Shown here one piece after another: positions 4,511-40,808 of a DNA stretch of 41,221 nucleotides. The stretch is from Verrucomicrobiota bacterium. Lineage in GTDB: Bacteria > Verrucomicrobiota > Verrucomicrobiia > Limisphaerales > UBA9464. Where the stretch lies: assembly GCA_026397755.1 (NCBI GenBank), contig JAPLUF010000119.1:1-41221 (forward strand). Direction: 5' to 3'. The notes beneath the pieces are model-generated. The model saw only the letters and a program-made list of their open reading frames with translations, did not search any database and was not told the DNA's origin. Each line of letters starts with the position of its first letter. Within the stretch, counting starts at the first letter, position 1. Made by a program: the position numbers and the translations under genes.

Positions 4511-5158
4511 TCAGCGGAGAGCACCGGCCGACGGCGGCGTGAGCAGAATGAACTCGCCACGACGATTCTTGCCCCAGGCGGACTCGTCATGACCGAGCTC
4601 GGACGGCTTGTCTTCGCCGAAGCTGCGGGTCACCACGCGGTCAGCGCCGATGCCCAAAGCAATCAACGCATCACGAGCCGACAGCGCACGCTTCTCGCCC
4701 AGAGAACGATTGTACTCTTCAGTGCCGCGCTCGTCGCAATGACCTTCGATGGCCACCTTGTTGTCGGAGTGGGCCTTGAGGTAGGTCGCCACGGCTTGGA
4801 TGTTCGCCTTGCTGTCCGCCTTCACCACGGACTTGTCGTAGTCGAAATAAACGGTGTTGGCCTTGAAGTGTTCACGGTTGGCCAGCATGCCCTCGATCTC
4901 CTCACGAGAAGGTTGACCATTGGCTCCATCCGGATTGTTGACTCCGGCCACATCAGCGCCGTTGGCACCCGAGCCATCTGTCGTCAGCGGGCGCGCCGGA
5001 GGCAAAATGGGCTGTCCCTTACCCAAGCTCGAAGAGGCTCCAGGAGCTCCCGAATATCCCGGCAGCGGCGTGTAATTCTTCTGCCCCTTCTTACATCCGG
5101 CAGCGAGGGAGAGGATCAGCACGAGGGCGATGGAACCCAATTTGGAGAACGGCTTCAT
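4511..5158 (-). CDS. pal: Peptidoglycan-associated lipoprotein, OmpA domain
   Basis: Lipobox LSLAAGCKK; OmpA domain VYFDYDKSVVKADSKANIQAVATYLKAHSDNKVAIEGHCDERGTEEYNRSLGEKRA. Confidence 0.95.
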   Translation of the reverse strand: MKPFSKLGSIALVLILSLAAGCKKGQKNYTPLPGYSGAPGASSSLGKGQPILPPARPLTTDGSGANGADVAGVNNPDGANGQPSREEIEGMLANREHFKANTVYFDYDKSVVKADSKANIQAVATYLKAHSDNKVAIEGHCDERGTEEYNRSLGEKRALSARDALIALGIGADRVVTRSFGEDKPSELGHDESAWGKNRRGEFILLTPPSAGALR

Positions 5159-5216
5159 TGGTGTGTTGAAAAAAGGCTGGAATCTGGAGATCTGAAAGTG
5201 GGTTAGCGGGCTGGGC

Positions 5217-6374
5217 TCAACGACTCCAACTAGGCTGGGAGCTGCTGCCCGCTACTTGCGCGGTATCTTTGACGTGGCCCGTCGGCCAGTCAAGCAGCGA
5301 CAATTTGCGGGGGCCAAACTTACTGGTCCGACGCACAAAAACCAAGGTCCTGGAATTGGGAGCCCAGGAAGGATCCTCGCCTTCGGTAATGACCTTGGCA
5401 TCGCCGCCGGCTGCTGGAACGATGCAAATATCGAAGTAATCGCCCCGGGAACGGGTGAATGCGATCCACTTGCCGTCCGGGGACCAATCGGGTTCGGTGG
5501 TATTGCGGACTCCGGCGGTGGTGAGACGGCGCATAGCGCCCCCCGAGGCCGAAACAATGTACAATTGCGGAAAACCACTTTCTCGGGATACCACGCACAG
5601 GCTAGATCCATCTGGAGACCAGCATGGAGAGGATTCATCGGCGGCCGTGGTGGTCAATCGACGGGGATTCCCGCCCTCGGCATCGCTCACCCACAAATCA
5701 GGACTCCCCGCCTTGCTGAGGATCATGGCCAATTTGGAGCCATCGGGCGACGGGGCCGGACTAATGTTGGACCCGGAGAACCGCACAAGAGCCTTGCGAC
5801 TGCCGGTGGTTAAATCTTGCGAATAAATATCAGCATTACCGGCCCGGTAGCTGGTATAAACCAAAGACTTACGACCAGGGCGCCACGCCGGAGCCGCGAC
5901 GATATTGCCATCGGCGGTCAATTGAACCGGATTGGCTCCATCGAAGTCGCTCGCATAAACCTCGCTGATCCGTTCTTTCTGAACCTTGAAGACCATCTTG
6001 GTGCGAGAAATTCCCTTCCGACCGGTGATCGCTTGAACGACGTCGTCGGCCAGTGCATGCGCTTGAGCCCGCGGAGAACCCCCAGGATACGAGCGATTGA
6101 ACAACGTGGCATTGTTGTTCACGTCGGCCAGCACTCCCTCCAGCGCCGCACCGGATTTTCCATTCACTGAATACTGCGCCTGGGCGAGGGCAACGAGGTC
6201 GAATCCGGCGACGTACAAGTCGAATTCCAGGACCGTCTTGGCGTCACCAGCGAAACCTGTGACGTGGATGGGCACGGCACGGCTAGTGACGTCACTAACA
6301 ACCACTTCGGCCGCGGAGGCGCTCAGGGAAATTCCCAGAGTGAGGAGGAGGGCGATGAATGAATGACGGAACAT
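5217..6374 (-). CDS. tolB: TolB beta-propeller protein
   Basis: Signal peptide, TolB N-terminal domain, repeated blades (SPDGSKLAM, SPDGSSLCVV, SPDGKWIAFTR); located between pal and tolA-like genes. Confidence 0.94.
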   Translation of the reverse strand: MFRHSFIALLLTLGISLSASAAEVVVSDVTSRAVPIHVTGFAGDAKTVLEFDLYVAGFDLVALAQAQYSVNGKSGAALEGVLADVNNNATLFNRSYPGGSPRAQAHALADDVVQAITGRKGISRTKMVFKVQKERISEVYASDFDGANPVQLTADGNIVAAPAWRPGRKSLVYTSYRAGNADIYSQDLTTGSRKALVRFSGSNISPAPSPDGSKLAMILSKAGSPDLWVSDAEGGNPRRLTTTAADESSPCWSPDGSSLCVVSRESGFPQLYIVSASGGAMRRLTTAGVRNTTEPDWSPDGKWIAFTRSRGDYFDICIVPAAGGDAKVITEGEDPSWAPNSRTLVFVRRTSKFGPRKLSLLDWPTGHVKDTAQVAGSSSQPSWSR

Positions 6375-6416
6375 ATCGGAAATTAAGCCAATGAGTTTGG
6401 GTCGGAGGTCAATTGT

Positions 6417-7409
6417 CTAAGCAGGAGAGGCAGCGGAAAGATCAAAGCGTATAGTGATTCGGCGCTCCGAATCGGTCGTACCATCCGGCAGCGGGCGAAG
6501 GTCGCGGTTGCCATCCAGCACCTCGCGAACGGAGTCGTCCAAGGCGCGAATTCCAGAGGGTTTCACCAACTTGAAGGCCGAGACCCGACCGTTGCGTTGA
6601 ACGGTGATTTCCACCTCCACCTCGCCGTGCTCCACGTTGAGGGTCGTGGGTTTCTTCCATCGCAGCTTGTAGAAGGCCATCAAGTAGGATCCGTAAGGCG
6701 CATAGGCAGCCCCTCCCGGCCCGGGCATCTCGAACGAGGTCGACCCCGACAAATTCTTCCCCAGATTCGAAGCGACGCCCCGAACGGCATCGGCGCGGGC
6801 CTGCTGGGCCTTACTCAAAGCCTCTCGGGCCGCCGTCACGCGCGCCTGATGCTCCCGAGCTTCACGCGCATCCTGAGCGGCGGCGACGGCGGCGGCGTTA
6901 TTGCGCTCAACCTCGGCCTCCTTCTTCGAGCGCTTTTTGGGAGCCTCGGCCAGCTGAAAGTCCGTCTTGGAGGACTTCAGTTTCTTGGTGGACAGGTTGG
7001 GATCCACATCCTGGGCATTGGGAGCACTGCGCTGAATCTCGGTGGCCAGGCTCTTCTTGGGCGGCTCCATCTTGGTGGGCTCCTTGGTGGGCTCCACCGC
7101 CTTGGCAGGCTCCGGAGGCGGAGTCTGAGGCTGCGTCTTCGGAGGTTCGGGCTGGGGCGGGGCTGGCGGGGCTGGGGCCGGCGGCGCAGACGGCTGCGGA
7201 CTGGACTTGGGAGGCTGGGCGTCCGGATTGCCACCTCCGAGGGTGTTGCCATCGGTGAGGCGCAGGTTGTCGGGAATAATCTCCAGGATGGGACTCGGAA
7301 CGTCTTGGACTGTGTGCGACGACAAGGCCGGGGCGAACAACAAAACCCCCACGGCCGCGGCATGAATGCCCACGGAGGTCAGAAAATATCGTGTGTTCGA
7401 AGGGATCAT
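6417..7409 (-). CDS. TolA/TonB-like protein (TM helix, Pro/Lys-rich linker, TonB C-terminal domain)
   Basis: N-terminal TM, long P/E/K-rich segment, C-terminal GEVEVEITVQRNGRVSAFKLVKPSGIRALDDSVREVL; start overlaps the tolR stop by 4 nt. Confidence 0.88.
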   Translation of the reverse strand: MIPSNTRYFLTSVGIHAAAVGVLLFAPALSSHTVQDVPSPILEIIPDNLRLTDGNTLGGGNPDAQPPKSSPQPSAPPAPAPPAPPQPEPPKTQPQTPPPEPAKAVEPTKEPTKMEPPKKSLATEIQRSAPNAQDVDPNLSTKKLKSSKTDFQLAEAPKKRSKKEAEVERNNAAAVAAAQDAREAREHQARVTAAREALSKAQQARADAVRGVASNLGKNLSGSTSFEMPGPGGAAYAPYGSYLMAFYKLRWKKPTTLNVEHGEVEVEITVQRNGRVSAFKLVKPSGIRALDDSVREVLDGNRDLRPLPDGTTDSERRITIRFDLSAASPA

Positions 7410-7834
7410 CGCCGCTTGGGGAGCTGGGTTCCGATACGGTAGCGAGTCAGTCCATTGCGACCAGCAATGTCGAGCAGACTCACCAGCACTTGCGACGGCG
7501 CTGAGCCCTCGACCCGGAGCACGAGCACTAAATTCGGATTCTGGCGGTAGGCCTTCACCAACTCTGTCTCCAATTCAAGCTCACTGAGCACCCGGGTTCC
7601 GGTCCGTGCAAACGTATACCGCCCCTCGGCCAGACCATTCACGTTGGCCTCGTTGTTGGTGTCGGGACGGGTGCGAGCATCGCCCCCCACCGGCAGCTTC
7701 ATGCTAATGCCCGGCTCCAAAGCTGGCGTGGTGATGATGAAAATGATCAGCAGCACGAACGCCAAATCCAGCAAGGGGGTGACGTTGATCTCGTTGAGCG
7801 TCACCAGCGAATTGCGTTGGGAAAAACGGCGCAT
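7406..7834 (-). CDS. Biopolymer transport protein TolR/ExbD
   Basis: MRRFSQRNSLVTLNEINVTPLLDLAFVLLIIFIITTPALEPGISMKLPVG; the ORF track start (7924) is too far upstream. M31 (7834) fits and lies 2 nt after the stop of the preceding gene. Confidence 0.93.
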   Translation of the reverse strand: MRRFSQRNSLVTLNEINVTPLLDLAFVLLIIFIITTPALEPGISMKLPVGGDARTRPDTNNEANVNGLAEGRYTFARTGTRVLSELELETELVKAYRQNPNLVLVLRVEGSAPSQVLVSLLDIAGRNGLTRYRIGTQLPKRR

Positions 7835-7836
7835 GA

Positions 7837-8706
7837 TTATTCGAAGATCCGGAAGCCTGAGAATTGGACCAGAATAAAACCGGCCAAGGATAAAAGGAGA
7901 ACCGCAGCCATGACATAAACCCACTTCATCGAAACGTTTTTTGCACCCAGCGGATCCAATCTCTCATTAATAGAGCGGTGGAGCCTTCGGTTGCATTTCA
8001 GACATCGAGGCTCAGAACGCGCATTGGTCGTTTCGCAGTCGCGACAGACGACGAAGAGGTGCCCTCGGCACTGTTCACACCGCTGCAAACCTGCCGGATT
8101 GAGATGGGTGCATTTGGCACAGACCACCGGCTCTGTGGAAACTAGGGAGTGGCCGTGGGACGGATCCGATGAGCCCGAGGATTTCTCCTGAGGACGGGAC
8201 GTTTCATGATGAGGCGTCTTATCCTGGATTTTGCGATGCAACCGGCCACGACAAGAGGCGCAGTGCATCAGCACCCGAGCATTTCGCTTCTGGCACTTCG
8301 GGCAGTCGAGGAAGAGTTCTTCACTACAGCGCTCGCAACGCTCGCGATCGATCGGGTTCAGATGCTCGCACTTGCAGCACAAAGTTCCCTTCCCCATCGG
8401 GCCCGAGGGGGCTTCGTCCCACCGCGAGGAAGCCGAAACCTCTTCCGGCTTAGAACTTAACAACCCTGAAAGCAGCCCTCTCTGGAGGGAATGACCGCAT
8501 TTACGGCATTGCGAGAGAACTCGTTCATTGGTCGCCGAGCAGGCCGAACACCCCACAAAGAGGGGCCTCGAGCAATACTTGCACGACTCCCGATCGGCCG
8601 GATTCAGACGATTACAGTCCGAGCACAAGACTCCTCGTCCCGACTGCGGAATCTCCGAGGTCGGGTGGATCGGGTGGAAGGAGGACTGGGGAACCGGGTC
8701 ACTCAT
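7837..8706 (-). CDS. Membrane protein with three tandem double zinc ribbons and a C-terminal TM helix, between tolQ and tolR
   Basis: 12 CxxC motifs in three repeated modules (CSDC..CKYC..CSAC..CRKC / CCKC..CERC..CPKC..CASC / CAKC..CEQC..CRDC..CLKC) followed by WVYVMAAVLLLSLAGFILVQF. Overlaps the tolQ-like stop by 8 nt. Confidence 0.9.
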   Translation of the reverse strand: MSDPVPQSSFHPIHPTSEIPQSGRGVLCSDCNRLNPADRESCKYCSRPLFVGCSACSATNERVLSQCRKCGHSLQRGLLSGLLSSKPEEVSASSRWDEAPSGPMGKGTLCCKCEHLNPIDRERCERCSEELFLDCPKCQKRNARVLMHCASCRGRLHRKIQDKTPHHETSRPQEKSSGSSDPSHGHSLVSTEPVVCAKCTHLNPAGLQRCEQCRGHLFVVCRDCETTNARSEPRCLKCNRRLHRSINERLDPLGAKNVSMKWVYVMAAVLLLSLAGFILVQFSGFRIFE

Positions 8707-9421
8707 CGTCGGGCAAGAACTCGGTCTCCATTTTGGAAGCTAGAGTCTGGGCGAAATTATCCAACTCCACGGTCAACACTCGCAGTGTGTGAACCAAATA
8801 ATTGTATCCGAACATCGAAGGGATGGCCACGAGGAGCCCCGCAACGGTGGTCACCAATGCGGCGGATACGCCGGGCGCCATTGCCGTCAAATCGGCGCGG
8901 CCCGCCTTCGCGATGCCTCCGAAGGTGTCCATGACACCCCAGACTGTGCCCAATAACCCCATGAATGGACCACCGCTGACAGCGATGGCCAAGAGGATCA
9001 GGCCTGATTCCAGACGCAGCGACTCACGGGCCACCGCACCCTCCACCTGCCGTTTGACATGCTCGATGCTCTTGATCGACAGACGGGTCCGCCTCGAGCC
9101 ATCGGTCAGGCGCAGCCGGGCTTCGAGATCGGTGCATCCGTCCGTATACACAGAAAACATGGGGCACCCCTCGACGGGCAGCCGACGATCGAAAATACCC
9201 AACACCCCCTCCTGCTGGCGAAATTCAGTCTCAAAAAAACCGTTGTACTTAGCGGCCCGCCGCATTTGGAAGAACTTCTGAATCATCATCGACCAAGCCC
9301 CGATCGAGAGGATGCCCAGAATGAAGATAATCACCTTGGCCTCGGGCGTGGCTTTGTTCCAGATGAAGCCGAGGTCGGTGCCACTCTGAGCGGCGGCGAG
9401 AATCCCGAGTGAAATGGTCAT
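8699..9421 (-). CDS. MotA/TolQ/ExbB proton channel family protein
   Basis: Three TM helices; GPFMGLLGTVWGVMDTFGGIAKAGRADLTAMAPGVSAALVTTVAGLLVAIPSMFGYNYL. Likely start is the internal MTISLGIL at 9421 rather than 9487. Confidence 0.94.
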   Translation of the reverse strand: MTISLGILAAAQSGTDLGFIWNKATPEAKVIIFILGILSIGAWSMMIQKFFQMRRAAKYNGFFETEFRQQEGVLGIFDRRLPVEGCPMFSVYTDGCTDLEARLRLTDGSRRTRLSIKSIEHVKRQVEGAVARESLRLESGLILLAIAVSGGPFMGLLGTVWGVMDTFGGIAKAGRADLTAMAPGVSAALVTTVAGLLVAIPSMFGYNYLVHTLRVLTVELDNFAQTLASKMETEFLPDDE

Positions 9422-9598
9422 GAGTTCGGTTCGGTCGATCGTTTTGCGTCGACCCGTCAGAAATGACGAACTAGAGCGCAAAACCAACGCAACTAGTTTT
9501 CACTTTTTTTCTCCACGCCGCAATCCTGCCGCGCGGAAAACCCGCCTTGAGCGACCGCTTTCTAGGGCGGAGCGCCCGGGTTGGAGGCCCGGGGCGGC

Positions 9599-13413: not shown

Positions 13414-16400
13414 ATGAAATTGACACCTGCACTCCTCCGCTGGCGAAGCCTGGTCTTTCATGCACAGCACCACCTGGGTGTCGTGCTGGCGGCAGGTCGC
13501 GGCGACCGTGCTCATCGGAGCCCTGACCGTTGGCGATTCGGTGCGGGAAACCCTCCGCCGCCGGGCGTTGGATCGCATCGGAAAAGCAGCATTCCTCCTC
13601 GATGGCGGCGACCGGTTCTTCACGGCGCGCAACGGTGGCCCGGCCGGAGCTGGGCTCTCCAACACGCCGTCCGCTTTTGCTCTAAGGCTTCCCGGTGTGG
13701 TCACACGCCAAGACGGGTCGGCTCGGGCCAACCAAGTGCGAGTCTACGGAGTCACGCAAGGTTTCTGGGCTCTCTCCCCCCGCGTGTGCTCATTCCCGAT
13801 GGACGATGACAGTGACGATGTGCTCCTGAATGCCGCGCTGGCCCGTCAGCTTTCCGTCCAGGTCGGAGATCCGCTAGTGGTACGCATCCACAAACCCTCG
13901 GCGTTGTCCCAGGATGCGGTTATTACTCCACGGGATGGATCCAGTGTTGCGCTTCGCGTTCGGGTTGGGCGCATTCTGAGCGCGGAAGAATGGGGCGACT
14001 TTTCACCTGAGGCGGGGTCATTGCCCCCGTTCAACCTGTTCATAAACCACTCCGTTCTGGCCAAGGCGGCCGGCCTGGTAGGACGGGCCAATTTGGCCCT
14101 TGTGGGAGCTTCGGCCGAGGCCACCAACAGCCAATGGCTCTCTTCGCGAGTGGACAGTGGTTTTCGCCTCGCCGACGCCGAACTCGAGGTCCGACCGATT
14201 CCTCTGCCGGCCGGCACCAACAACAACTCCCCGCTAGCGCAGGTGGAACTGGTCAGTCGCCGGATCTTCCTCGATCCGGTGGTCACGCAAGCTCTCGACC
14301 GCCAGCCTCCGGGGCTCCCCAAGCCAGTTCCAATCCTGACCTATCTGGCCAATGCCATCGAAAGCGGCGCCCGATCGGCCCCGTACTCGATGGTCACGGC
14401 CGCCGGCGACCCGTTCACCCCGGAGGGAATGACCGATGACGAAATTCTCATTAATTCTTGGCTAGCCGAAGATCTGGCAGTGAAACCCGGGGATTGGGTC
14501 TCAATCCTGTCCTATCGGGTGGACACAGGGTCTCGACTGGTGGAGGAAACCAACCGGTTTCGTGTGCGGGCTATCGTTCCCCTGCAAGGGCTCCACGCCG
14601 ACCGGTCGCTGATGCCGGAGTTTCCCGGGCTAACCAAAGCCGAGAGCACCCAAGATTGGGATGCGGGCTTCGAATTAACGCGGCCAATTCGAGACAAGGA
14701 CGAAACCTACTGGAAGCAATGGCGTGGAACACCCAAAGCCTTCATCACCCTGTCGGCCGGGCGAAAGATGTGGGCCAACCGCTTCGGGAATGCCACCGGA
14801 GTCCGATGGTTTGCAGGCGACTTCTGGGACACCCAGACCTTGGCCCGCGGGATCTCCCAGGAATTGGAACGCAGGATCCCGCCAGCGGATTTGGGATTGC
14901 GCTTTCAACCCCTCACCGGGCCTGCCTTAGCGGCCGCCCAAGGAGGGCAAGATTTCGGCGGCCTGTTCATCGGTTTTAGCTTCTTCCTCATCGTGTCTGC
15001 GCTCCTGCTGCTAAACTTGGTCTTCCGCTTCGGCATCGAACGCCGTGTCCAAGAGGTGGGCACCTTATTGGCGCTGGGCTGGACCCCGAAGGCAACTGCA
15101 CGACTCTTCTTCCGCGAAGGACTCCTGCTGGCGACCCTCGGAGCCACTCTAGGAACCGGCGGCGGGCTGCTCTACGGACAAGCCGTGCTCGTGGGCCTCA
15201 ACACGCTGTGGCGAGACGCTGTCGCTGGAGCTTCACTCAGCTTCCATACTGCTCCAGCCTCCATGGTCGGAGGCTGGTTGGCGGCAGTGCTCATGGTCGC
15301 CTGGACCCAGCGTCGAGCTCTGAGGTTCATCGTCCGACGCAGCCCCCGAGAACTGCTCAACGATGGGTCTTTGGTGGGCTCGGGCGCGGGTGAGTCTGTT
15401 TCCATTTTCTGGCCCGGGCTAACGCTACTGGGAGCCATTGTCTTGGCCCTCCTCGGAGCAAAAGCCGATCCCGCACTACGCCCTGGCTACTTCTTCGGGG
15501 CGGGCGCGTTGCTGCTCGGATTCGGCCTCCTTTTCCACCGTCGGCAGCTTCGAAATTCACGAACCGATTCGATAGCCACCACTCGCTCACAACTCCATTC
15601 CCGCGCACCGGCCCGACAACCCAACCGCTCGGCAGCGGTAATTAGCCTGTTGGCGGTGGCCGTGTTCCTCATCGTGGCCGTGGCTGCGAACCGTCTCGAT
15701 GCCTCCCGTGATGCCCGTGAACGCAGCTCCGGCACCGGAGGATTCAGCCTCTGGGCGGTGTCCTCGCTACCCGTCAGCGAAGAATTGAATACCACCCGGG
15801 GTCAAGAGAAACTGGGGCTCGATCCTCAACGCTTGAAGGGAATGTCCGTCGTTCCCATGCGGGTCCGAGAGGGAGACGATGCGAGTTGCCTCAATCTGAA
15901 TCGAGCCCAACGCCCCCGCCTCTTCGGAGTGCGCCCGGAATCATTGGCTGAGCGGAAGGCCTTCACCTTCCAGTCACTGGCCGATGGCATGCCCACCGAT
16001 CGCCCTTGGATGAGCCTGGAGCACACCGGCAATACCAACGAACCCGTCCCCGCCATCGGCGATGCCAACTCCATCCAGTGGGCCCTGGGCAAAAAGATCG
16101 GAGACACCTTGGACTATATCGATGAACGAGGCCACCCGTTCCAAGTGCGCCTGGTGGGTTCTGTCGCCAACTCCATTCTTCAAGGTCAGTTATTAATTTC
16201 GGAGGCCGAATTCCTACGCCATTTCCCCGGCGAAAACGGCTACCGCTCCTTCCTCATCGACACCGACGAGCCTGCAAAACCCGTTGCCGAAGAATTGACA
16301 CGGGGCCTGGCCGACTTAGGGCTCGAAACGACCAGCACCGTGGACCGACTCAACCGCTTCAACGCCGTCCAGAATACTTACCTCAACACCTTTCAGTGGC

Positions 16401-16756
16401 TGGGTGGCCTCGGTCTGCTCCTGGGCAGCGTGGGATTAGGATTGGTCGTCCAGCGCAATGTCCTGGAGCGCCGGGGTGAACTGGCCCTGCTCGCTGCAGT
16501 GGGATTCCCGAAGTCTCGGATCCAATCCATGATCCTATCGGAGCACCTCCGGTTGCTGGCGCGCGGCATGATCTTGGGCATCGCGGCAGCCCTGCTAGCT
16601 ACGGCTCCCATCTGGAGCGCAAACCTCCGGGGATTGCCGTGGATTTCGCTGGGTTGGATCCTGGGGGCAGTCTTCCTCAATGGCGTCTTCTGGACCTGGC
16701 TGGCGACCCGTCAGGCCTGCCGCGGCGAACTTTTGGCTGCCCTGCGCGGAGAGTAA
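13414..16756 (+). CDS. FtsX/MacB-type ABC transporter permease, apparent frameshift near 13495
   Basis: Main ORF 13460-16756 has FtsX-type TM domains (GGLFIGFSFFLIVSALLLLNLVFRFGIERRVQEVGTLLALGWTPK; GGLGLLLGSVGLGLVVQRNVLERRGELALLAAVGFPKS). The natural N-terminus MKLTPALLRWRSLVFHAQHHLGVVLA lies in another frame from 13414. Confidence 0.85.
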
Positions 16757-21214: not shown

Positions 21215-22978
21215 TTGACTAAAGTCATGGGGCAACTTTCTCACGACCCTGCTCACCGTAGGAACACACCTTCTTCGGGACCACCCTCCCCTCCGAGCCC
21301 TTTTCATCGTTTCGTGGCCCTGCTGCAGCCGGAGGCACCCGAGATTCGCATCATTCTCGTCCTGTCGATCATTTCAGGAATTCTCTACTTGGCGACCCCG
21401 TTGACGGCCGATGCGGTCGTCAACAATTTTGCCTTCGGCGGGGAGCAACCTGTTTATGTCCAGGCACTCATCATTCTGGCGGTGTTCCTCATGTTCCTGC
21501 TCGGAATGCTGGGGGTTCTGCGGGCAGGACAAGAATACGCGATGGAGTTGATCCAACGCCGTATCTTTGTGCGCCTGACGGCCGATTTGGCGTTTCGACT
21601 CCCGAGAGTCCCTCTGGAGGTTCTTGAAGCTCATCAAGGACCTGAATTGGTCAACCGCTTCTTTGATGTGGTCACCATTCAGAAAAGCGCCTCGGGCCTA
21701 CTTCTAGATGGAATCAACGTCCTCTTCAGCACCTTGATCGGATTGGTGGTCCTCGGATTCTACCATCCTCTCCTCCTGTCCTTCGCCTCCGTTCTATTGG
21801 TGCTGCTGGTGCTCATCGTCTTCATCCCAGGACGCCGCGCGGTCCACACCAGCATTGATGAATCTTATGCCAAACACGCGGTAGTCGGTTGGTTAGAGCA
21901 AATCGCCATGTTCCCCCTGCTCTTTCGGGTCAGCGGCGCGGCCGAAATGGCGTGTTCTCGCGCCGACCAGTTGGCGCTGAACTACCTCGCGGCGCGAAAA
22001 TCCCATTTCCGCATCCTCTTAGGCCAGGTCATCGCCTTACTGGGTCTGCAGGCCATTGCCAGCGCAGCACTGCTTTCCATCGGGGGCTGGTTGGTGCTTC
22101 GGGCTGAACTCACACTCGGTCAATTGGTCGCCAGCGAGCTCATTGTCGCCTCGATTGTGGCAGCCATTTCCAAACTCGGGAAACACTTGGAGAGCTGGTA
22201 TGACGCGTTGGCCTCCGTGGACAAATTGGGATATTTGGTCGATTTGCCTATCGAACGGGAAACCGGCGAAAAACCGGTCATTTCCGAGAAAGGCATCCGA
22301 GTGCAGGTACGCGGAGTCAGCTACACACCCGCCGGTGGGCTGCCTGTTCTAGAGAACCAAGACCTGGAGATCCCACCCGGCTCGACCCTAGGCATCGTGA
22401 GCCCTGGCGGGCTGGGCGGAAGCGCTCTGCTAGATCTCTTGGCGGGCCTGCGGGAACCCTCCAGTGGCCAGGTGCTACTCAATGGAATCGACCTCCGGCT
22501 TTGGCAATTGGGCGAACTCCGACGTCAGGTCTTCCTCGTTCGAGGTCAGGAGATCGTTCAGGGATCCCTCCTTGAAAATATCCGCCTTGGACGGCCAGAC
22601 ATCGGCATCGACGCAGTGAATGGCGCGCTCGAATGCGTGGGTTTGATGACGGTTGTTCAACGAATGCCCGATGGGCTCGAGACGCTGCTCAGCCCGGGAG
22701 GCCATCCGTTGACCAACTCCCAGCGGAGCCGACTTATTCTAGCCAGAGCCATCATTCGCAAGCCACGGTTGTTGCTCGTAGACGAAGCTCTGGACGGACT
22801 CGAAATTGAAACACTCGAAAAGCTCGAAGCCGCGCTGTTTGAAGCCCGCGAGCCCAGCACCCTCGTGTTAGTGACGCGCGACCCAGACCTCATCCGCCGC
22901 TGCGACCACTCGGTTCATCTGGGCGACTGTCACCTCAGCCGCCCCGGACACGGCTCTGAACTTCCTCCCCGAGCATGA
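21215..22978 (+). CDS. ABC transporter (fused TM and nucleotide-binding domains) with degenerate ATPase motifs
   Basis: ABC exporter TM domain then NBD. Walker A position reads VSPGGLGGSALL, signature LTNSQ, Walker B LLLVDEAL, H-loop position VTRDPDLI. Followed by hlyD- and tolC-like genes. Confidence 0.9.
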   Translation: MTKVMGQLSHDPAHRRNTPSSGPPSPPSPFHRFVALLQPEAPEIRIILVLSIISGILYLATPLTADAVVNNFAFGGEQPVYVQALIILAVFLMFLLGMLGVLRAGQEYAMELIQRRIFVRLTADLAFRLPRVPLEVLEAHQGPELVNRFFDVVTIQKSASGLLLDGINVLFSTLIGLVVLGFYHPLLLSFASVLLVLLVLIVFIPGRRAVHTSIDESYAKHAVVGWLEQIAMFPLLFRVSGAAEMACSRADQLALNYLAARKSHFRILLGQVIALLGLQAIASAALLSIGGWLVLRAELTLGQLVASELIVASIVAAISKLGKHLESWYDALASVDKLGYLVDLPIERETGEKPVISEKGIRVQVRGVSYTPAGGLPVLENQDLEIPPGSTLGIVSPGGLGGSALLDLLAGLREPSSGQVLLNGIDLRLWQLGELRRQVFLVRGQEIVQGSLLENIRLGRPDIGIDAVNGALECVGLMTVVQRMPDGLETLLSPGGHPLTNSQRSRLILARAIIRKPRLLLVDEALDGLEIETLEKLEAALFEAREPSTLVLVTRDPDLIRRCDHSVHLGDCHLSRPGHGSELPPRA

Positions 22979-24342
22979 ACCGTGACCCGGCCCCCACCGA
23001 GCCCCTAAAATCGGAGGTTCTGCTGCACTCTCCGTCGCGTTCTCAGTCCCCCTCCGCCATGTCCCTGCTGGACCAGCGGAGCGGGTTCAGCGCGCTGAAC
23101 CACACGGCTTCCTCGCGGCGCCTGCGTCAGCTGACCTTTGTGTCGGCCGCCCTGTGTCTCATTGCGCTGATAGCGCTCATCTTGTTGCCTTGGCGGCAAT
23201 TCGTCAGCGGATCGGGTCGAGTCATTGCCTACAATCCATTGGAACGGAGCTTGACCATCGAGGCGCCGCTGCCGGGCAAGGTGCAGCGGTCCTTCGTGGT
23301 CGAGGGACAGGAAGTCCAAGAGGGCGATCCGCTCTTCGAGATCGTGGACAACGATCCCAACCTCTTGGCCAATATTTTACAGCAGCGCGATGCGGCCAGT
23401 ACTCGACGCGATGCGGCCAAGACTCGAGTCGAATCGCTGGGCCTCCAAATCGGCGAGCAAGAACGTGCGCTTCCGCTGGCGATGGAAGCTGCCAAGACTC
23501 GCCTGGCCGCCGCCCGATTCGCCGCCGACACCGCCCGACTGCAATTCGACCGATTCAAGGCGCTGCACGCTGACAAACGCGGGCTTGTATCCCAGCGAGA
23601 CTTTGAATTGACCACCCTGGAGCGGGACCGGACCGAGGCCGAATTGCAGCGCTCGCAAGCGGAGCTGGAGCGGACTCCGGTGGATTTGCGGGCCGCGATC
23701 CAAGGCATTACCGCCCAGCGGGATTCCGCACGGGCCGAACTGGCCTCCGCGGAACAATCGCTGACGGGGCTCGAGATCCAAATCAGCCAGACCCGGATGC
23801 AAAAGGTGACCTCTCCGCGGGCGGGCATCGTCTTCCGCCTCCAGTCCACCGAGGGCACTTTTCTTCGGGCCGGTTCGCCGCTCTGCACCATCATCGCCCA
23901 GACCGACAAGCCCATGGTGGAGGTCTGGCTTCAAGGGCAGGACATGCCACTGGTCACCGCCCGCGAGACGGGCCCCGAGGGTCAACTCGTCCGCGAAGGC
24001 AGCCCGGTGCGCCTCCAGTTCGAGGGTTGGCCCGCGCTGCAAATGATAGGCTGGCCGAGTTTGGCCCGGGGCACCTTTGGCGGCGAAGTGGTACTGGTAG
24101 ATCCGACTGACAACGGCAAGGGGAAGTTCCGCATCCTCGTGGCCGAAAAACAAGACGTGGTCCAGGGCCCGGATGGACAAGCGACTTCGGTGCCGTGGCC
24201 TGGTTCCCGATGGCTCAGGCAGGGGGTTCGCGCCAACGGTTGGGTCCTGCTGCAGCGGGTTCCGCTGTGGTACGAAGTGTGGCGCCAATTGAACGGATTC
24301 CCACCGGTGATCACGGAAGAGGCTCTGGGTTCCAAGCAGTGA
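22975..24342 (+). CDS. HlyD-family membrane fusion protein
   Basis: N-terminal TM, lipoyl-like IEAPLPGKVQRSFVVEGQEVQEGDPLFEI, coiled coil, VTSPRAGIVFRLQSTEGTFLRAGSPLCTI; 4-nt overlap with the ABC gene. Confidence 0.93.
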   Translation: MNRDPAPTEPLKSEVLLHSPSRSQSPSAMSLLDQRSGFSALNHTASSRRLRQLTFVSAALCLIALIALILLPWRQFVSGSGRVIAYNPLERSLTIEAPLPGKVQRSFVVEGQEVQEGDPLFEIVDNDPNLLANILQQRDAASTRRDAAKTRVESLGLQIGEQERALPLAMEAAKTRLAAARFAADTARLQFDRFKALHADKRGLVSQRDFELTTLERDRTEAELQRSQAELERTPVDLRAAIQGITAQRDSARAELASAEQSLTGLEIQISQTRMQKVTSPRAGIVFRLQSTEGTFLRAGSPLCTIIAQTDKPMVEVWLQGQDMPLVTARETGPEGQLVREGSPVRLQFEGWPALQMIGWPSLARGTFGGEVVLVDPTDNGKGKFRILVAEKQDVVQGPDGQATSVPWPGSRWLRQGVRANGWVLLQRVPLWYEVWRQLNGFPPVITEEALGSKQ

Positions 24343-24353
24343 TTTTGCCCGTG

Positions 24354-25937
24354 ATGAATGCGATGTCCGTCGTGGCGCTCCAGTTGAATCGGCGATCCGG
24401 CCCGAGGTTATCGACCCAGGGTCAGCGTGCACGAGGGGTCCATCACCGTGCTTCCGCTGCCCATTGGGCCGCCGTCCGCTGCTTCGCTCTTTGCCTGATT
24501 CTGGTGAGTCTTTCCTTTGGTTTACAGGCGGCGGAGACGCCTAGTACGGCACCAACAACGGCCGCCCCTGCTTCAACCAACGCGTTGACGCTGCACGAGG
24601 TACTCGACTCGGTCCGTCAGCAATACCCGCCCATGCTGGCCGCACTCATCGAACGCGATATCGCCGCCGGACGCCTCCAAAGCGCGCGCGGCACCTTCGA
24701 TTTCCAGTTCTTCTCCCGGCTCTTCGACGCTCCGAGCGGATACTACCAGACCACCACCGTCGACACGGGCTTCGAGCAATTCACCGGCCTCTGGGGCAGC
24801 ACTCTTTTTGGAGGCTATCGCATCACCACCGGCGGCTTGTTGCCGGACTACGAAAAGAACCGAACCCAGGGCTCCGGCGAACCTCGGATCGGATTTCGGC
24901 TACCCCTGCTGCGCGATGGATCCATTGATCGGCGGCGGGCCACCCTTTTCAAGGCACGACTCGACAAGGATCTGGCCGACCCGGTGATCCACCGTCAGCA
25001 AATCGACTTCATCCGGGCCGCCACTGCGGGTTACTACGGTTGGCTCGCCGCAGGAGAGCGCCTGCGACTTTCCGAGGCCCTGTTGCGCATCGCCCGTGAG
25101 CGCATGGATGCCCTCAAGACCCAGAGCGATTCTGGATTAATCGCCCGGATCGTCCTCACGGACAACCGACGCCTCATCGTCTCGCGGGAACTGGCCATGG
25201 TGCAGGCTCGCCGGCGCTTCGAGGCGGCCGGACTGGCCTTGTCGCTATTCTATCGGGATGGACAAGAGAACCCCACCGTGGCCACTCGGGATCGCTTACC
25301 TCCAAGTCTGCCCGCTCCGGTGGGTCCTGAGGCAAGCCTCCTTCAGCAAGACCTCCAGCGCTCGCTCACGGTCCGGCCTGAGCTCAAACGATTGAGTCTC
25401 ACCCAGGAAAAGCTCGAAGTGGATCGCCGCCTCGCCCGAAACCAACTCCTACCGAACCTGGATGCCGGCGTCAGCGCCAACCGCGACTACGGCGACCGCC
25501 GCTACAAAGACCAGACCGAGACCGAAGTCCAGGTGGGCGTCGAATTACGAGTACCCCTCCAACGGCGCGAGGCCAAGGGTCGGGTGGCGGAGGTTGAAGC
25601 CCAACTGGAGCAACTCACCCATGAGCAGCAGTTTGCCCGAGATCGAATCCAAACCGAGGTGCGCGACTCCTTCTCCGCCTGGAGTGCCGCCCACGAGCAA
25701 ACCCTACAAGCCCGGCTCAATGTTCAACTGGCTGTGGAACTTCAAGAGGCCGAGAACGAGCGATTCATGCGCGGAGCCACCGACTTGTTGGCCTTGCAGT
25801 TGCGCGAACAGGCCGCCTTCGACGCCCAAGTGAGCGCCGTGGACATTGACGCCGACTGTTTCCGGGCCCAGGCCGACTACCGCGCGGCCACCGTCGCCGA
25901 GAGATTGACGCTCTCGGCCCCCACCAAGAAACACTGA
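24354..25937 (+). CDS. TolC-family outer membrane efflux protein
   Basis: TLHEVLDSVRQQYPPMLAALIERDIAAGRLQSARGTFD; LDAGVSANRDYGDRRYKDQTETEVQVGVELRVPLQRREAKGRVAEVEAQ. The ORF track start (24195) overlaps hlyD; GTG 24351 or ATG 24354 fits. Confidence 0.92.
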   Translation: MNAMSVVALQLNRRSGPRLSTQGQRARGVHHRASAAHWAAVRCFALCLILVSLSFGLQAAETPSTAPTTAAPASTNALTLHEVLDSVRQQYPPMLAALIERDIAAGRLQSARGTFDFQFFSRLFDAPSGYYQTTTVDTGFEQFTGLWGSTLFGGYRITTGGLLPDYEKNRTQGSGEPRIGFRLPLLRDGSIDRRRATLFKARLDKDLADPVIHRQQIDFIRAATAGYYGWLAAGERLRLSEALLRIARERMDALKTQSDSGLIARIVLTDNRRLIVSRELAMVQARRRFEAAGLALSLFYRDGQENPTVATRDRLPPSLPAPVGPEASLLQQDLQRSLTVRPELKRLSLTQEKLEVDRRLARNQLLPNLDAGVSANRDYGDRRYKDQTETEVQVGVELRVPLQRREAKGRVAEVEAQLEQLTHEQQFARDRIQTEVRDSFSAWSAAHEQTLQARLNVQLAVELQEAENERFMRGATDLLALQLREQAAFDAQVSAVDIDADCFRAQADYRAATVAERLTLSAPTKKH

Positions 25938-33276: not shown

Positions 33277-34530
33277 CTATCGCATGCGAAAGTGGCGCTC
33301 TGCGAATCCCAGGAACTGCTGCCAATCGTAGAGTTCCACCGAGTGGCCACCGGGTCGATTATGGTAAGCAATGTCCCCCTCGTTGATCGCGACCCCAACA
33401 GCAGGTGGCGTCGGAGAGTCCAAACCCTTCTTGCCGAGCAATCGGTACACCTCAGAGGCATGATGAGCTGAAAGGTACTCACCCACGGGATCCGCCCAGA
33501 GGTCCTCCACCCCGCTGGCGACATACAAGGGCCGCGGTGCGATGCACGCCAATAGCTCGTGTTGATCGACGGGCAAGTCGTCCTCATTGCGCGCAAACCG
33601 GGCCGCATTCCGGCACAACCAATACGGGAAGCGTGTGACCATTTTCTCCATGTTCTCGCCGAAACTGCGTTTCCAGAGGGCCGCTCCGGCACAACCAGAT
33701 TGCGCCGAGATCACCAATGCAAAGCGGGTGTCTTGAGCTGCCGTCCAAAGAGCGGTCTTGCCCATCTTGGAATGACCCATGATGGCCACCCGCCGGGCGT
33801 CCACATCCGGGTCCGTTTCGAGGTAGTCCATCGCCCGAGAGCCACCCCAGGCCACGGCTGAGATTACCCCCCATTCGAAGGACTTAGGGAAACTCTGGTG
33901 CTCGCGATAAAACAGCGGGTGGATTCCCTTGAGGAATTCCACCTCGTTGTGTCGAACCAGATCGGATTGAGGCACCACCACAAAACCAAATCCCCGTTGC
34001 AGCAGTTCGCCAATGGGCACTCCGTTGCGCAAGTAGCCGGGTCGATCGGGATGCGGATCATGACCGTCGTCCCGCGTGCCGGAAAAGCTGTGGAGCATGA
34101 ACACCGGAGCCGGCTTACCGCTGCCATTGGGTGTGATGACCAAAATCCGCAAATCCACCTCTCCCTTCGCATTGTGGAAGCGAAGCCGGACATCTTTTCG
34201 GGTAGCCTTTCCACCCATGAATTGCCGGTCGACCTTGAGAATTTCAGTCTGAACCTGAACTGGCACTTCCGGTGCCGGAACCACTCCGTAAACGAGGTTC
34301 CCGAAGAGCGCGATGAGTTGAGGGCGTCGAACCTGAAACCACTCCTGCGCCGTGGTGATGGGTCGACCCTCGGCCGAGACGAGTACCGGCGGCAACTGGT
34401 AGGGAGGCACCTTAGATTCGTCGCGAATGACATCCAGGTCACTGTTCTTGGGTTCCTCGGCCTGCAAAACCAGCAGGCTCATCACCACGGCACCCACCCA
34501 TCCCCAGCCACTCGATTTTCGCGGTCTCAT
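33277..34530 (-). CDS. CE15-like (glucuronoyl esterase / acetyl xylan esterase-like) alpha/beta hydrolase
   Basis: VAIMGHSKMGKTALWTAAQDTRFALVISAQSGCAGAAL, HELLACIAPRPLYVASGVEDLWADPVGEYLSA, GGHSVELYDWQQFLGFAERHF. Confidence 0.85.
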   Translation of the reverse strand: MRPRKSSGWGWVGAVVMSLLVLQAEEPKNSDLDVIRDESKVPPYQLPPVLVSAEGRPITTAQEWFQVRRPQLIALFGNLVYGVVPAPEVPVQVQTEILKVDRQFMGGKATRKDVRLRFHNAKGEVDLRILVITPNGSGKPAPVFMLHSFSGTRDDGHDPHPDRPGYLRNGVPIGELLQRGFGFVVVPQSDLVRHNEVEFLKGIHPLFYREHQSFPKSFEWGVISAVAWGGSRAMDYLETDPDVDARRVAIMGHSKMGKTALWTAAQDTRFALVISAQSGCAGAALWKRSFGENMEKMVTRFPYWLCRNAARFARNEDDLPVDQHELLACIAPRPLYVASGVEDLWADPVGEYLSAHHASEVYRLLGKKGLDSPTPPAVGVAINEGDIAYHNRPGGHSVELYDWQQFLGFAERHFRMR

Positions 34531-35672: not shown

Positions 35673-36512
35673 ATGACGCTTCTACGGTCAGGATGGATGG
35701 GTGTTTTAATGTGGCTCCTGACCGGCTGCCATTCTCACAAACATCCCGTCACACCACCCGCCCCGACGCCTCCCATGCGACTCCTCTTCGTAGGCAATAG
35801 CCTGACCTACTACAACGGCGGCCTCGAAAATCACGTCCGTCTGCTGGCCGCATCCGCAACCCCTCCTCGCATTCTTGTGGCCGATCGTGCCACGCAAGGA
35901 GGTGCCACGCTTCGCATCCTCCACGGATTGCCCGCAGTGCATGAACGCATCCAGCAAGGACACTACGATCGAGTCATCCTGCAGGACGACATCCCGGAAC
36001 TCACCGAGCACAGCATCACTGCCTTCCAGGAATACGCCCGACGCTTCGATCAAGAAATTCGATCCCATGGCGGACGCTCGGTGCTCTTCATGGCCTGGCC
36101 CTACGAACGCCTCGGTTGGATCTCACTCGAGCAAATTGCTAATGCCCACAGAACTCTGGGAGTGGAACTGAATGCGCCTGTCGCACCGGTGGGATTGGCC
36201 TTCCATCGTTCGCTGGAAGCGCGCCCCCAACTCCCCATGCTGGGCAAGGATCGCGAGCACGAAACCGTGCACGGAACCTATTTGGCCGCCTGCGTCCACT
36301 ACGCGACCCTCTTTGGCGTTTCTCCAGAAGGACTGCCCTATCGACCCGACGGGGTGTCTGCGGACGAGGCCTCATTCCTGCAATCCATCGCCTGGCAGAC
36401 GGTCCAGGCTTGGTCTCGGGGACCGTCATCGCACCGCGCGCTCAGCCCCCCCAACGTCCCACATCACCCCAGGAAAATCGCCGGCCGCATCAACCGATCG
36501 CACCCTCGATGA
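35673..36512 (+). CDS. Putative SGNH-hydrolase-like lipoprotein
   Basis: Lipobox-like LLTGCHSH; MRLLFVGNSLTYYNGG block I with GNS, VILQDDIPE, HGTYLAACVHYATLFG. ATG at 35673. Confidence 0.78.
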   Translation: MTLLRSGWMGVLMWLLTGCHSHKHPVTPPAPTPPMRLLFVGNSLTYYNGGLENHVRLLAASATPPRILVADRATQGGATLRILHGLPAVHERIQQGHYDRVILQDDIPELTEHSITAFQEYARRFDQEIRSHGGRSVLFMAWPYERLGWISLEQIANAHRTLGVELNAPVAPVGLAFHRSLEARPQLPMLGKDREHETVHGTYLAACVHYATLFGVSPEGLPYRPDGVSADEASFLQSIAWQTVQAWSRGPSSHRALSPPNVPHHPRKIAGRINRSHPR

Positions 36513-37950
36513 GCTCTCCATGAACATCAGTGAGGCGATGATCTCGCCCGCCAGAGCGGAAGGTCAGGCGACGATGATCCACCCCCATCTGATGCAACAC
36601 GGTGGCATGGAGGTCATGCACTCGGCAGATCTTGTCCACTGACCGATAACCGAACTCGTCAGTAGCGCCGATAATGGTACCACCACGGATCCCGCCGCCG
36701 GCCATCCACACCGAGAATCCAAACGGATTGTGGTCGCGACCGTTGGATCCCTGGGCAAAGGGTGTCCGCCCAAATTCACCGGACCACACGAGCAAGGTTG
36801 AATCCAACAAACCGCGCCGCTTGAGATCCAAGATCAGCGCCGTGATGGGTTGATCGACCGCCCGGGCATTGGCTTCGTGACCGGCCTTCAGATCACCGTG
36901 CTGATCCCAGCGGTCACCGATGGTCCGAGGACAAGTGACCTCGATGAACCGGACGCCCCGTTCCACCAACCGGCGCGCCAGACAACATTCGCGGGCATAA
37001 ATCCGGGTCGGCTCGAACGGGCTGTCGAATCCGTAGAGCGCTTTTGTCTCAACACTCTCCCCATCGAGCGCCGCCAGTTCAGGAACTGCGGATTGCATGC
37101 GGTAGGCCAATTCGTGATTAGCAATCGCGCTCTCGATAGCCTCGGCCCCGGTGTCATGGGCGAAGGCCGAATCCAAGCGCCCGATGAGTTGACGCTTGCG
37201 TCGCTGAACCAACTCGGAATCCCGGGGAGTGGCGTCGGCGATGGCCTCACCCCGCGGACGCAAGATAGACCCCTGATGCCGCGCCGGCAGGAATCCGGCA
37301 GAAAAACAGTCCAGCCCGCCAGGGGGCACCAGCCCACCTTCCACGACGACAAAGCCGGGCAGGTTATCATTCGCACTGCCTAGGCCGTAGGACATCCAAG
37401 CTCCCATGGACGGACGCCCAGGAATCCCAGAGCCCGTGTGCAGGAAATAATTCGCGTTGGTGTGTTCACTGAACTCGCTGGTCATCGAGCGGACCACGCA
37501 CAATTCATCAGCCACCCGCCCGAGATTCGGAAACAGCTCCGAGATGGGAATGCCCGACTGCCCGTGTTGGCTAAACTTCCAAGGCGAGGCCAGCGTGTTG
37601 CCGTTGTTGTTGAATTGCGTGGGCGCCATCGCCATCGGAAACGGCTTTCCGTGGTAATCGGCCAAACGCGGCTTTGGATCGAAGGTGTCCATTTGCGACG
37701 GACCCCCGTCCTGATAGAGAAAGATCACACTGCGAGCCCGCGCCCGGGAATGGGTCGAAGCCAAGATCCCTGAATCACGCGGCGAGCTACTGGCGCCTTC
37801 CGACCCGGCACCCGACGCGGCGCCCGTTGGCCCGAACAAACCGGCCAACGCCAATAAACCAAACCCTCCGCTGGAAGCCGCTAGCAGGTCGCGGCGACTC
37901 ATGGGCGTGGAGTGAAACCGGCCGCAATGGTGAGTCCGGGGCGTGTTCAT
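36490..37950 (-). CDS. DUF1501-domain (sulfatase-like) Tat-exported protein
   Basis: MSRRDLLAASSGGFGLLALAG Tat signal; IFLYQDGGPSQMDTFDPKPRL; LLVWSGEFGRTPFAQGSNGRDHNPFGFSVWMAGGGIRGG. Confidence 0.94.
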   Translation of the reverse strand: MNTPRTHHCGRFHSTPMSRRDLLAASSGGFGLLALAGLFGPTGAASGAGSEGASSSPRDSGILASTHSRARARSVIFLYQDGGPSQMDTFDPKPRLADYHGKPFPMAMAPTQFNNNGNTLASPWKFSQHGQSGIPISELFPNLGRVADELCVVRSMTSEFSEHTNANYFLHTGSGIPGRPSMGAWMSYGLGSANDNLPGFVVVEGGLVPPGGLDCFSAGFLPARHQGSILRPRGEAIADATPRDSELVQRRKRQLIGRLDSAFAHDTGAEAIESAIANHELAYRMQSAVPELAALDGESVETKALYGFDSPFEPTRIYARECCLARRLVERGVRFIEVTCPRTIGDRWDQHGDLKAGHEANARAVDQPITALILDLKRRGLLDSTLLVWSGEFGRTPFAQGSNGRDHNPFGFSVWMAGGGIRGGTIIGATDEFGYRSVDKICRVHDLHATVLHQMGVDHRRLTFRSGGRDHRLTDVHGELIEGAIG

Positions 37951-40808
37951 CGGAGGAAAACAAATTCTTTGGAGGCGAAGAGCGCGTGATTCAAAGCCGC
38001 ATAGGCCGACCGCTCACGAGCCAACGGCGACGTTTCTGACGTTGCGGACCGTTCAGATTCTAAGAACTCCAAGGCCATGCGAACTTCATCGGCTCGCGGC
38101 CACCGGGAGAAGGCTGAGAGCCAGAGCGTTTCGATGCGCGCTCGATCTAAATCGGCGGAAACGGTGCTGGTAGCAGTGCCCTCCGGGAGGAGTGTTTCTG
38201 CCCACCGCCGGGCCATCAGATGAACCAACTCACTATTCATCAGGGCCAGGGATTGTGCCGGCACATTAGAGGCATGGCGACGACCGCAAGTGGTGGCCGG
38301 GGACGGTTGGTCGAAGGCCTGCAAGAAGGGATCGAGAAAATTGCGCCGCGTCTCGAGGTACACACTGCGACGACGGGCCCCATCAATCGGCCCAGACTTC
38401 CCAGGTCGGCCGCGCCCTTGCATATGCTCGGTCAGGCGGGCCGGAACGCTGACACCACCCGCCGTGCGGTCGAGGGTGCCGGAGGCGGCCAACATCGCAT
38501 CCCGAATTTCCTCGGCATCGAGGCGTCGGACCGGCAGCGGCGACCAAACTTCGGCCGGGGTCTCGCCGGGATCGGCCGCAGACCGATAGGCATGGGAAAG
38601 AGCAATGTCCCGAATGATCTGCTTGAAGGTGTGGCCTCGACTCAACCGGGACGCCAGGTGGTCGAGCAATTCCGGGCTCCAAGGCGTGCCACCGAGTTGC
38701 CCGAAATCATCGGGTGTCTCAACGATGCCGCGCCCGAACATCTTGAGCCAAATTCGGTTGGCAGTGGTTCGCCACAAGAACGGGCGACGCGGATCGGTGA
38801 GTGCTGCCACCAAGGCCCGGCGACCACTGCCCACTACAGGTTCCTTGTCACGGGCACCCAGCAGAGACAATCGCGCCAGCGGAGCGGCCTCGCCCGGGCG
38901 GTGAGCCGCACCGCGGAGGTGAATTGGCTCGTCCAACGGACCTCCTTCATCGGCCACCAATGCGCGAATAGGCGGAGCGCAGGCGAGCAACGCATCCCGA
39001 GCCTCAACAACGCGCCGGCGCGCCTCGGCTAAGCCCGGAGCCGCTGCGTTCAGCCCGCTGGCCAAGCCGTCAGAATCCCACTGTTCGAAGGGGGGCGGCG
39101 TGGGCGCATCGCTCGCAAGAATCGTATCGACCTCGATCCAACCCGGGCCGTCATCCTGCACCTCGAAGTGAACGCGTTCCCCTGCATAGCGAGAGAAGTC
39201 GAACGTCTCGATTCGCCAAGCCATCTCGCGCGGGTCTTTTTGGGCCTCCACCCCTTCGACGCGCCCGAGGCGGCGACGGTATCCCTCGAAGAGCAGGCCC
39301 ACATGCTTATCGAGCCAGTAGTTGTCCACGACGGCACGGAAGGCGGCATCGCTACCCCGCAACCGGACGTGAAAATAGCGTTTCTGGATGGTGAAATCGG
39401 CCGAACGGGCACTGCCGGCCAGCGGCAATGCAAGGCGAGCACTGTCGAGAGTGCCCGTCTCCGCGACCCGAAGCTCCCCAGCCGTCGTGAGAGCCAACCG
39501 AGAACCCGAGGCATCAAACGCGTGTCCGCTGCGGGACCACCCCGCACCACCCTGAATCACGTCATCCAGCACCGTGACACCCACAGCCTGAGTGGCACGA
39601 GTTACTCCGGAGACACCGAACATTTGAGCCACCGCCTCCAAAGACTCCTGGGCCGCCAACGCGCGGCCCGAAGTCCGCGCATCGGCATCGAGGAACCCCT
39701 CAATGCGTCGCGTGTTCCGGGCCACGCCCGACAACGCATAAAAATCCCGGGTAGGAATGGGGTCAAACTTGTGGTCGTGACAACGGGCACAGGCGATCGA
39801 CAACCCAAAGAGACTCCGGCCCGCCACATCCACCGCCCCGGCCAATCGATCGGCTTCATCCTGACGGACATCGACAGGAGCATGGGTCGCAGGCCCGAGG
39901 AACCACCACGCCGTCCCAATAGGGGCAGCATTGGGAAGCCCCAAACCCGGCCGCGGCGGCAACAAGTCACCGGCCACCTGCTCGGCCACGAATCGAGCTA
40001 GCGGCAGATCGGCATTGAAGGCCTCGACCACGTAATCCCGATAGCGCCAGGCATAGGGAATATCGAAATCGAATTCATGGGCCATGGTCTCGGCAAAGCG
40101 GGCGAGGTCCAGCCAATGACGGCCCCAGCGCTCACCGAAGGCCGGGTCTGCCAGATATCGGTCCACCCAGCGCGCATAGTGTTCGGGAGTGGGATCGGCT
40201 AAAAAGATCCGCACCTCTTCCGTCGTCGGCGGCAACCCCCGCAAGTCATACGACAACCGACGGAGCAACGCCGCGTGATCGATGTCCCGCGCCGGAGCCG
40301 GCAACCGCGCCGCCTCGCGGTTGGCGAGAACGAAGGCGTCGATACCTCCCCAACACCACTGCCCATTACGAACAGAGGGCAAGCCAGGGTCTTGAAGAGC
40401 ACGGAACGCCCAGGGCTCAGCATAGCCAGCACCGGCGGCAATCCACTGCTCCAGAATTCGCACCTCGTTCGGGTTCAACGGTTCTCCCTTCGGCGGCATG
40501 CGTTCGTCTGGATCGGAATGCACCACCCGAGCCAGCATCGGGCTGGAAGACGGCTTACCTGGCACAATCGCCACCCCACCCGATTTCAGCGGACTCGTCG
40601 CACCCTCCACCGTATCCAAGCGCAACCCCGCCTTACGGGCCTCGGCGTCCGGGCCATGGCACGCGTAGCACTTAGCGGCCAAAATGGGACGCACCGAACG
40701 AGTGAAATCCGGCCCCAAAGCCATCACCTGACCGGTCCCCAGAATGAGTCCCCCAAGGGCAAGGACGGTGCTCAGCCAGCAACCCATCGATGGAAAGACA
40801 GTGGACAC
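37947..40808 (-). CDS. PSD1 / DUF1549-DUF1553 cytochrome c-like domain protein
   Basis: FTRSVRPILAAKCYACHGPDAEARKAGLRLDT haem-binding motif; DUF1549 WVDRYLADPAFGERWGRHWLDLARFAET; DUF1553 C-terminal half. 4-nt overlap with DUF1501. Confidence 0.95.
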   Translation of the reverse strand: MSTVFPSMGCWLSTVLALGGLILGTGQVMALGPDFTRSVRPILAAKCYACHGPDAEARKAGLRLDTVEGATSPLKSGGVAIVPGKPSSSPMLARVVHSDPDERMPPKGEPLNPNEVRILEQWIAAGAGYAEPWAFRALQDPGLPSVRNGQWCWGGIDAFVLANREAARLPAPARDIDHAALLRRLSYDLRGLPPTTEEVRIFLADPTPEHYARWVDRYLADPAFGERWGRHWLDLARFAETMAHEFDFDIPYAWRYRDYVVEAFNADLPLARFVAEQVAGDLLPPRPGLGLPNAAPIGTAWWFLGPATHAPVDVRQDEADRLAGAVDVAGRSLFGLSIACARCHDHKFDPIPTRDFYALSGVARNTRRIEGFLDADARTSGRALAAQESLEAVAQMFGVSGVTRATQAVGVTVLDDVIQGGAGWSRSGHAFDASGSRLALTTAGELRVAETGTLDSARLALPLAGSARSADFTIQKRYFHVRLRGSDAAFRAVVDNYWLDKHVGLLFEGYRRRLGRVEGVEAQKDPREMAWRIETFDFSRYAGERVHFEVQDDGPGWIEVDTILASDAPTPPPFEQWDSDGLASGLNAAAPGLAEARRRVVEARDALLACAPPIRALVADEGGPLDEPIHLRGAAHRPGEAAPLARLSLLGARDKEPVVGSGRRALVAALTDPRRPFLWRTTANRIWLKMFGRGIVETPDDFGQLGGTPWSPELLDHLASRLSRGHTFKQIIRDIALSHAYRSAADPGETPAEVWSPLPVRRLDAEEIRDAMLAASGTLDRTAGGVSVPARLTEHMQGRGRPGKSGPIDGARRRSVYLETRRNFLDPFLQAFDQPSPATTCGRRHASNVPAQSLALMNSELVHLMARRWAETLLPEGTATSTVSADLDRARIETLWLSAFSRWPRADEVRMALEFLESERSATSETSPLARERSAYAALNHALFASKEFVFLR

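Follow-up and report, generated by a model that had tools for sequence, protein, structure and literature searches.

A widespread pseudo-ABC family of putative tripartite exporters that very probably does not hydrolyse ATP

ABC transporters are a class defined by their use of ATP, and ABC exporters require the Walker A lysine, the signature and the H-loop for ATP hydrolysis. In the 41,221-nucleotide stretch of verrucomicrobial DNA analysed here (the window), an operon of three genes that resembles a pump for toxin secretion joins an ABC half-transporter degenerate in all three features to a HlyD-type adaptor and a TolC-type channel, raising the question of what could drive such a system. Whether an ABC exporter fold can run on ion gradients alone, as has been reported for LmrA and MsbA stripped of their nucleotide-binding domains (NBDs), is disputed; a multi-phylum family with its ATPase disabled and its membrane domain under stronger constraint than the NBD amounts to a natural experiment on this question. 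The likeliest answer, which we put forward tentatively from sequence and by analogy, is a pseudo-ABC family, widespread and unnamed, whose tripartite exporters would not hydrolyse ATP and would draw on an ion gradient, an energy source out of the ordinary for this class.

The ABC gene (21215-22978, forward strand) is an open frame of 587 residues with matches to ABC_membrane (PF00664) and ABC_tran (PF00005); Pfam, fold and motifs together describe a half-transporter with a membrane domain and a degenerate NBD, here called pseudo-ABC. Translation probably starts at ATG 21227 rather than TTG 21215, because the methionine at residue 5 is kept across orthologues. Comparison with canonical motifs located, all on the forward strand, a degenerate Walker A, VSPGGLGGSALL (22397-22432), with Gly402 at the lysine position (codon 22418-22420); LTNSQ in place of the canonical LSGGQ signature (22709-22723); and Arg555 in place of the H-loop histidine (22877-22879). 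Set against what an ATP-hydrolysing exporter carries, the protein has neither the Walker A lysine, nor LSGGQ, nor the H-loop histidine; the Walker B motif LLLVDE (22769-22786) keeps Asp523 and Glu524. The hlyD start overlaps the ABC gene by 4 nt (ATGA), and the periplasmic adaptor (22975-24342, forward strand), assigned from Pfam HlyD, bears the diagnostic block FEGWPAxQxxGWPxxAxGTFGGxV. The outer-membrane channel (24354-25937, forward strand) was recognised by its Pfam OEP match (E=2.7e-26) and conserved operon order; it probably begins at ATG 24354 rather than at a GTG further upstream. A prior sequence-only reading had described this ABC-hlyD-tolC arrangement, its 4-nt overlap and the four motif states of the ABC subunit, and our motif comparison, ORFs and Pfam domains bear out each of them.

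That reading also held that the gene is not an obvious pseudogene, and proposed to ask whether homologues share the motif losses and the hlyD/tolC linkage. They do. Among 59 related genomes, 18 of the 19 sampled from the genus (the window's own counted) contain an orthologue, as do 7 of the 17 other genomes from the family. In an alignment spanning 43-96% identity, none of the orthologues has the Walker A lysine, a canonical signature or the H-loop histidine. Neither of the two things that would have spoken for a decaying copy, intact homologues in sister genomes or base errors at the motif codons, came to light. Gene decay or sequencing error as the source of the losses could appeal to two broken copies, one in the same genus with two in-frame TAG stops (L014, genome G016) and one in the same family with a frameshift (L025, G033), which look like sporadic loss of the system. 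Against it stand identical losses in more than 80 independent genomes, a frame open over 587 residues and a dN/dS of about 0.08 in the NBD. We rejected this explanation, which we consider virtually excluded, on the shared absence of the lysine in the orthologues and on purifying selection.

The family extends well beyond these relatives. When 84,980 species genomes were scanned, 306 relatives emerged. The best 80 of these 306 come mostly from Verrucomicrobiota, among them two isolates, Brevifollis gellanilyticus and Opitutae bacterium BS10, and all 80 lack the Walker A lysine, with Ala, Gly, Ser, Thr, Cys or Val in its place. With the adaptor sequence as bait, operons beyond the ABC-based relatives were recovered: additional ones in Verrucomicrobiota, others in Pseudomonadota (7 of 200 genomes of one order and 11 of 399 of the phylum, the bait genome counted in both) and, among plasmid records, some in the Bacteroidota Persicobacter, Aureibacter and Riemerella; annotated examples are found in Sphingomonadales. 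All adaptor-bait loci have the ABC gene and hlyD, and nearly all a TolC gene. Pseudomonadota and Bacteroidota harbour a more distant branch of the family, its NBD likewise degenerate. In a membrane-domain tree, a quick search with some long branches, the family splits from canonical exporters with an SH-aLRT of 100, while members of the Verrucomicrobial type group in a single clade with support of 99. Judged from these sequences, the motif loss is family-wide across three phyla and far older than one sequence reveals. Operons from genomes labelled Burkholderiales (L151 in G482, L144 and L109 in G446, and L108) nest within the Verrucomicrobial-type clade, one of them on a 260-kb contig; the module of three genes may have passed as a whole from one phylum to another, or the labels may reflect binning errors.

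Across the loci of Verrucomicrobiota, Pseudomonadota and Bacteroidota nothing in the neighbourhood is conserved but the gene order ABC-hlyD-tolC, the neighbours being otherwise unrelated. No conserved fourth operon gene and no linked canonical ABC partner was found across the loci of the three phyla; neighbours around the family loci offered no conserved hint of a substrate, and no linked RTX-type substrate was noticed. Public annotation names the proteins ‘ABC transporter ATP-binding protein’ or ‘ABC transporter transmembrane domain-containing protein’, the first being a label that annotation pipelines thereby give to non-ATPases. We found no description of the family in the open-access literature (subscription journals were outside the search).

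How far has the NBD degenerated? We scored four catalytic features in 86 family proteins and 13 canonical controls. The SGG signature occurs in none of the 86, the H-loop histidine in one, the Walker A lysine in 10 (76 lack it) and the Walker B Asp-Glu in 45, and no family protein combines more than two of these features; the controls have four features (10 of 13) or three (3 of 13). Which motif survives varies by clade. The Verrucomicrobial type (n=61) keeps the Walker B aspartate throughout (61/61), an arginine at the H-loop position (60/61) and a glycine-rich P-loop remnant; alpha- and gamma-proteobacterial members have no recognisable P-loop and no Walker B aspartate; some Bacteroidota and deep branches keep the lysine and have lost Walker B or the signature. 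Loss of the Walker A lysine was discarded as the sole hallmark of the family, since 10 distant members keep it; the consistent losses are those of the signature and the H-loop. Two Verrucomicrobial loci, L063 and L065, were seen with a histidine at the H-loop position and the Walker A lysine missing.

The disabled domain is nonetheless maintained. Within the genus the NBD has a dN/dS of about 0.08 (median 0.077), which matches the membrane domain and does not exceed the value for a canonical ABC exporter of the same genomes (about 0.13); partial saturation of dS between distant pairs makes these figures approximate. In the clades without a P-loop the NBD changes more quickly than the membrane domain, yet it is constrained, with a dN/dS of 0.19-0.45 where synonymous change is unsaturated. 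The balance between the domains is reversed relative to canonical exporters, in which NBD identity exceeds membrane-domain identity in 74 of 78 pairs; in the family it falls short of it in almost every one of 2,485 pairs. No member without an NBD was seen in the family. The NBD is under purifying selection and is therefore retained in a structural or regulatory role.

AlphaFold predicts a full ABC-exporter fold of type I/IV for the protein, with a 6-TM membrane domain and an NBD (pLDDT 80, pTM 0.60), and Foldseek matched it best to HlyB (8dck), with PCAT1, TAP, MsbA, TM287/288 and TmrAB also among the matches (E<=1e-25 for HlyB, PCAT1 and MsbA). The operon has the same make-up as type I secretion systems (T1SS) of the HlyB-HlyD-TolC and LssB type, an ABC half-exporter with HlyD and TolC, and longer members have an N-terminal extension that can be aligned to the LssB T1SS model (profile 7-676) in its C39-like region. 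In contrast to T1SS subunits, however, the window protein lacks the SGG signature, the Walker A lysine and the H-loop histidine, and it falls far below the cut-offs of the curated ABC models, with 179 bits against 693 (TIGR03375) and 174 against 726 (TIGR01846); all NCBIfam T1SS models stay well short of their cut-offs, with 174-200 bits against 693-726. We file the operon as a variant of the ABC/T1SS-type tripartite exporter, outside T1SS proper. Models of T1SS, RND and DevB adaptors fit the HlyD-type protein about equally well, and its best PDB sequence match, EmrA (4tko), is weak and unspecific. EmrAB-TolC is itself a tripartite pump that is not driven by ATP, but its proton-driven inner-membrane part is an MFS protein rather than an ABC fold.

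An ABC-fold homodimer, a HlyD adaptor and a TolC channel would make up a trans-envelope exporter, which is probably functional. Because two identical subunits form the two sites of a homodimer, both sites would be without lysine and signature, and canonical ATP hydrolysis is, on the motif evidence, very probably absent. The NBD would be a pseudo-ATPase that holds the fold and is coupled to the membrane domain while leaving ATP unhydrolysed, its dimer serving perhaps as a structural or regulatory clamp, and transport would proceed by alternating access in the membrane domain. The earlier reading had offered a T1SS-like conduit powered by something else; a trans-envelope conduit whose NBD is unable to work canonically is supported, power from something else is the option we favour, and possibly, by analogy with LmrA and MsbA, that something is an ion gradient.

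The membrane domain carries candidate residues for such coupling. Glu308 (22136-22138, forward strand), in predicted TM6, is 99% conserved across three phyla and absent from the canonical exporters compared, and this family-specific conservation marks it as a candidate ion-coupling residue. K220, W226, S217, Q271 and Y329 (100%) and D330 (90%) are likewise family-specific, and Gln303, Arg120 and Lys157 are further near-invariant positions of this kind. An ion gradient, of protons for instance, could be used through conserved polar and acidic residues such as Glu308 and the nearby Glu326, Tyr329 and Asp330. LmrA and MsbA share the overall fold, and when freed of the NBD their membrane domains can use a proton gradient for transport: MsbA without its NBD exports ethidium with delta-pH (PMC4979069), and NBD-less LmrA is a proton-coupled symporter that requires Glu314 in TM6 (PMC2704374; PMC6155054). 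A TM6 glutamate is essential in LmrA, but by counting its position does not coincide with that of Glu308: LmrA Lys388 and Glu314 lie 74 residues apart, and the same distance back from residue 402 leads, if no indels are assumed, to residue 328, near Glu326, Tyr329 and Asp330 and not Glu308. LmrA and MsbA are, moreover, natively active ATPases, whereas the pseudo-ABC NBD is disabled family-wide. In NBD-bearing LmrA and MsbA, deletion of the Walker A lysine abolishes drug transport, which has been attributed to nucleotide trapping (PMC4979069; PMC6155054), and this inactivation counts against an ion-driven reading. In the proteobacterial branch, a complete loss of nucleotide binding, which its motif losses lead us to expect, would avoid such a trap. 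The conserved transmembrane polar residues could also serve the substrate instead of ions. We venture, with slightly greater reserve than for the overall explanation, that these may be a widespread natural family of secondary-active ABC-fold exporters, which would have abandoned ATP for an ion gradient used through the TM6 glutamate and would have a HlyD-TolC pair of their own for export across the two membranes.

The non-hydrolytic gate that the sequence-only reading had listed survives as a rival, unlikely but the most serious of those we weighed: a passive or ligand-gated valve feeding HlyD-TolC, opened by binding of substrate or nucleotide and letting substrate flow down its own gradient. 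The invariant Walker B aspartate, P-loop remnant and near-invariant H-loop arginine of the 61 Verrucomicrobial-type proteins suggest a site kept for something, and nucleotide binding gates ion exchange in LmrA (PMC6155054). Nucleotide gating is not the common mechanism, however, because the alpha- and gamma-proteobacterial members have neither P-loop nor Walker B aspartate, and the strong family-specific conservation within the membrane domain points to something more than a pore. Hydrolysis through an unorthodox site fares much worse. The lysine of some members and the Walker B Asp-Glu of others could be its remains, but with two of four features at most, retained motifs that differ between clades and the SGG signature nowhere, we give it very little credence.

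Other explanations look to a partner. The protein could be the degenerate half of a heterodimer whose unlinked canonical ABC half-transporter supplies ATP hydrolysis, an idea also raised by the earlier reading; the window's own genome has many other ABC ATPases, and exporters with one degenerate site are common. TM287/288, TmrAB and TAP are, like pseudo-ABC, half-transporters with degenerate NBD motifs, but they are heterodimers in which each half keeps the lysine and one composite site stays intact. Here no partner is linked in any of the three phyla, proteobacterial members have lost all motifs, and in a heterodimer both composite sites would be impaired, because the lysine is lost in one and the signature in the other; the partner idea is thereby weakened, and we consider it improbable. 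No more probable is a role as adaptor, sensor or assembly platform, with HlyD-TolC lent to another pump or to signalling. Pseudo-enzymes often turn into regulators and HlyD/TolC parts can be shared between pumps, as is established for TolC, but the transmembrane transport domain is the most conserved part of the protein, and the three genes form a complete operon that keeps reappearing as a whole.

Elsewhere in the window, a Tol-Pal/TonB-like cluster (4511-9487, reverse strand) encodes OmpA, a PD40 beta-propeller, TonB, a double zinc ribbon protein and MotA/TolQ/ExbB, and a 1098-residue protein (13460-16756, forward strand) has two FtsX permease domains, with no separate ATPase noted beside it. 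On the reverse strand lie also a gene for a glucuronyl-esterase-like protein (33277-34530) and, at 36490-40808, DUF1501 together with a PSCyt1/DUF1549/DUF1553 pair typical of Planctomycetes and Verrucomicrobia.
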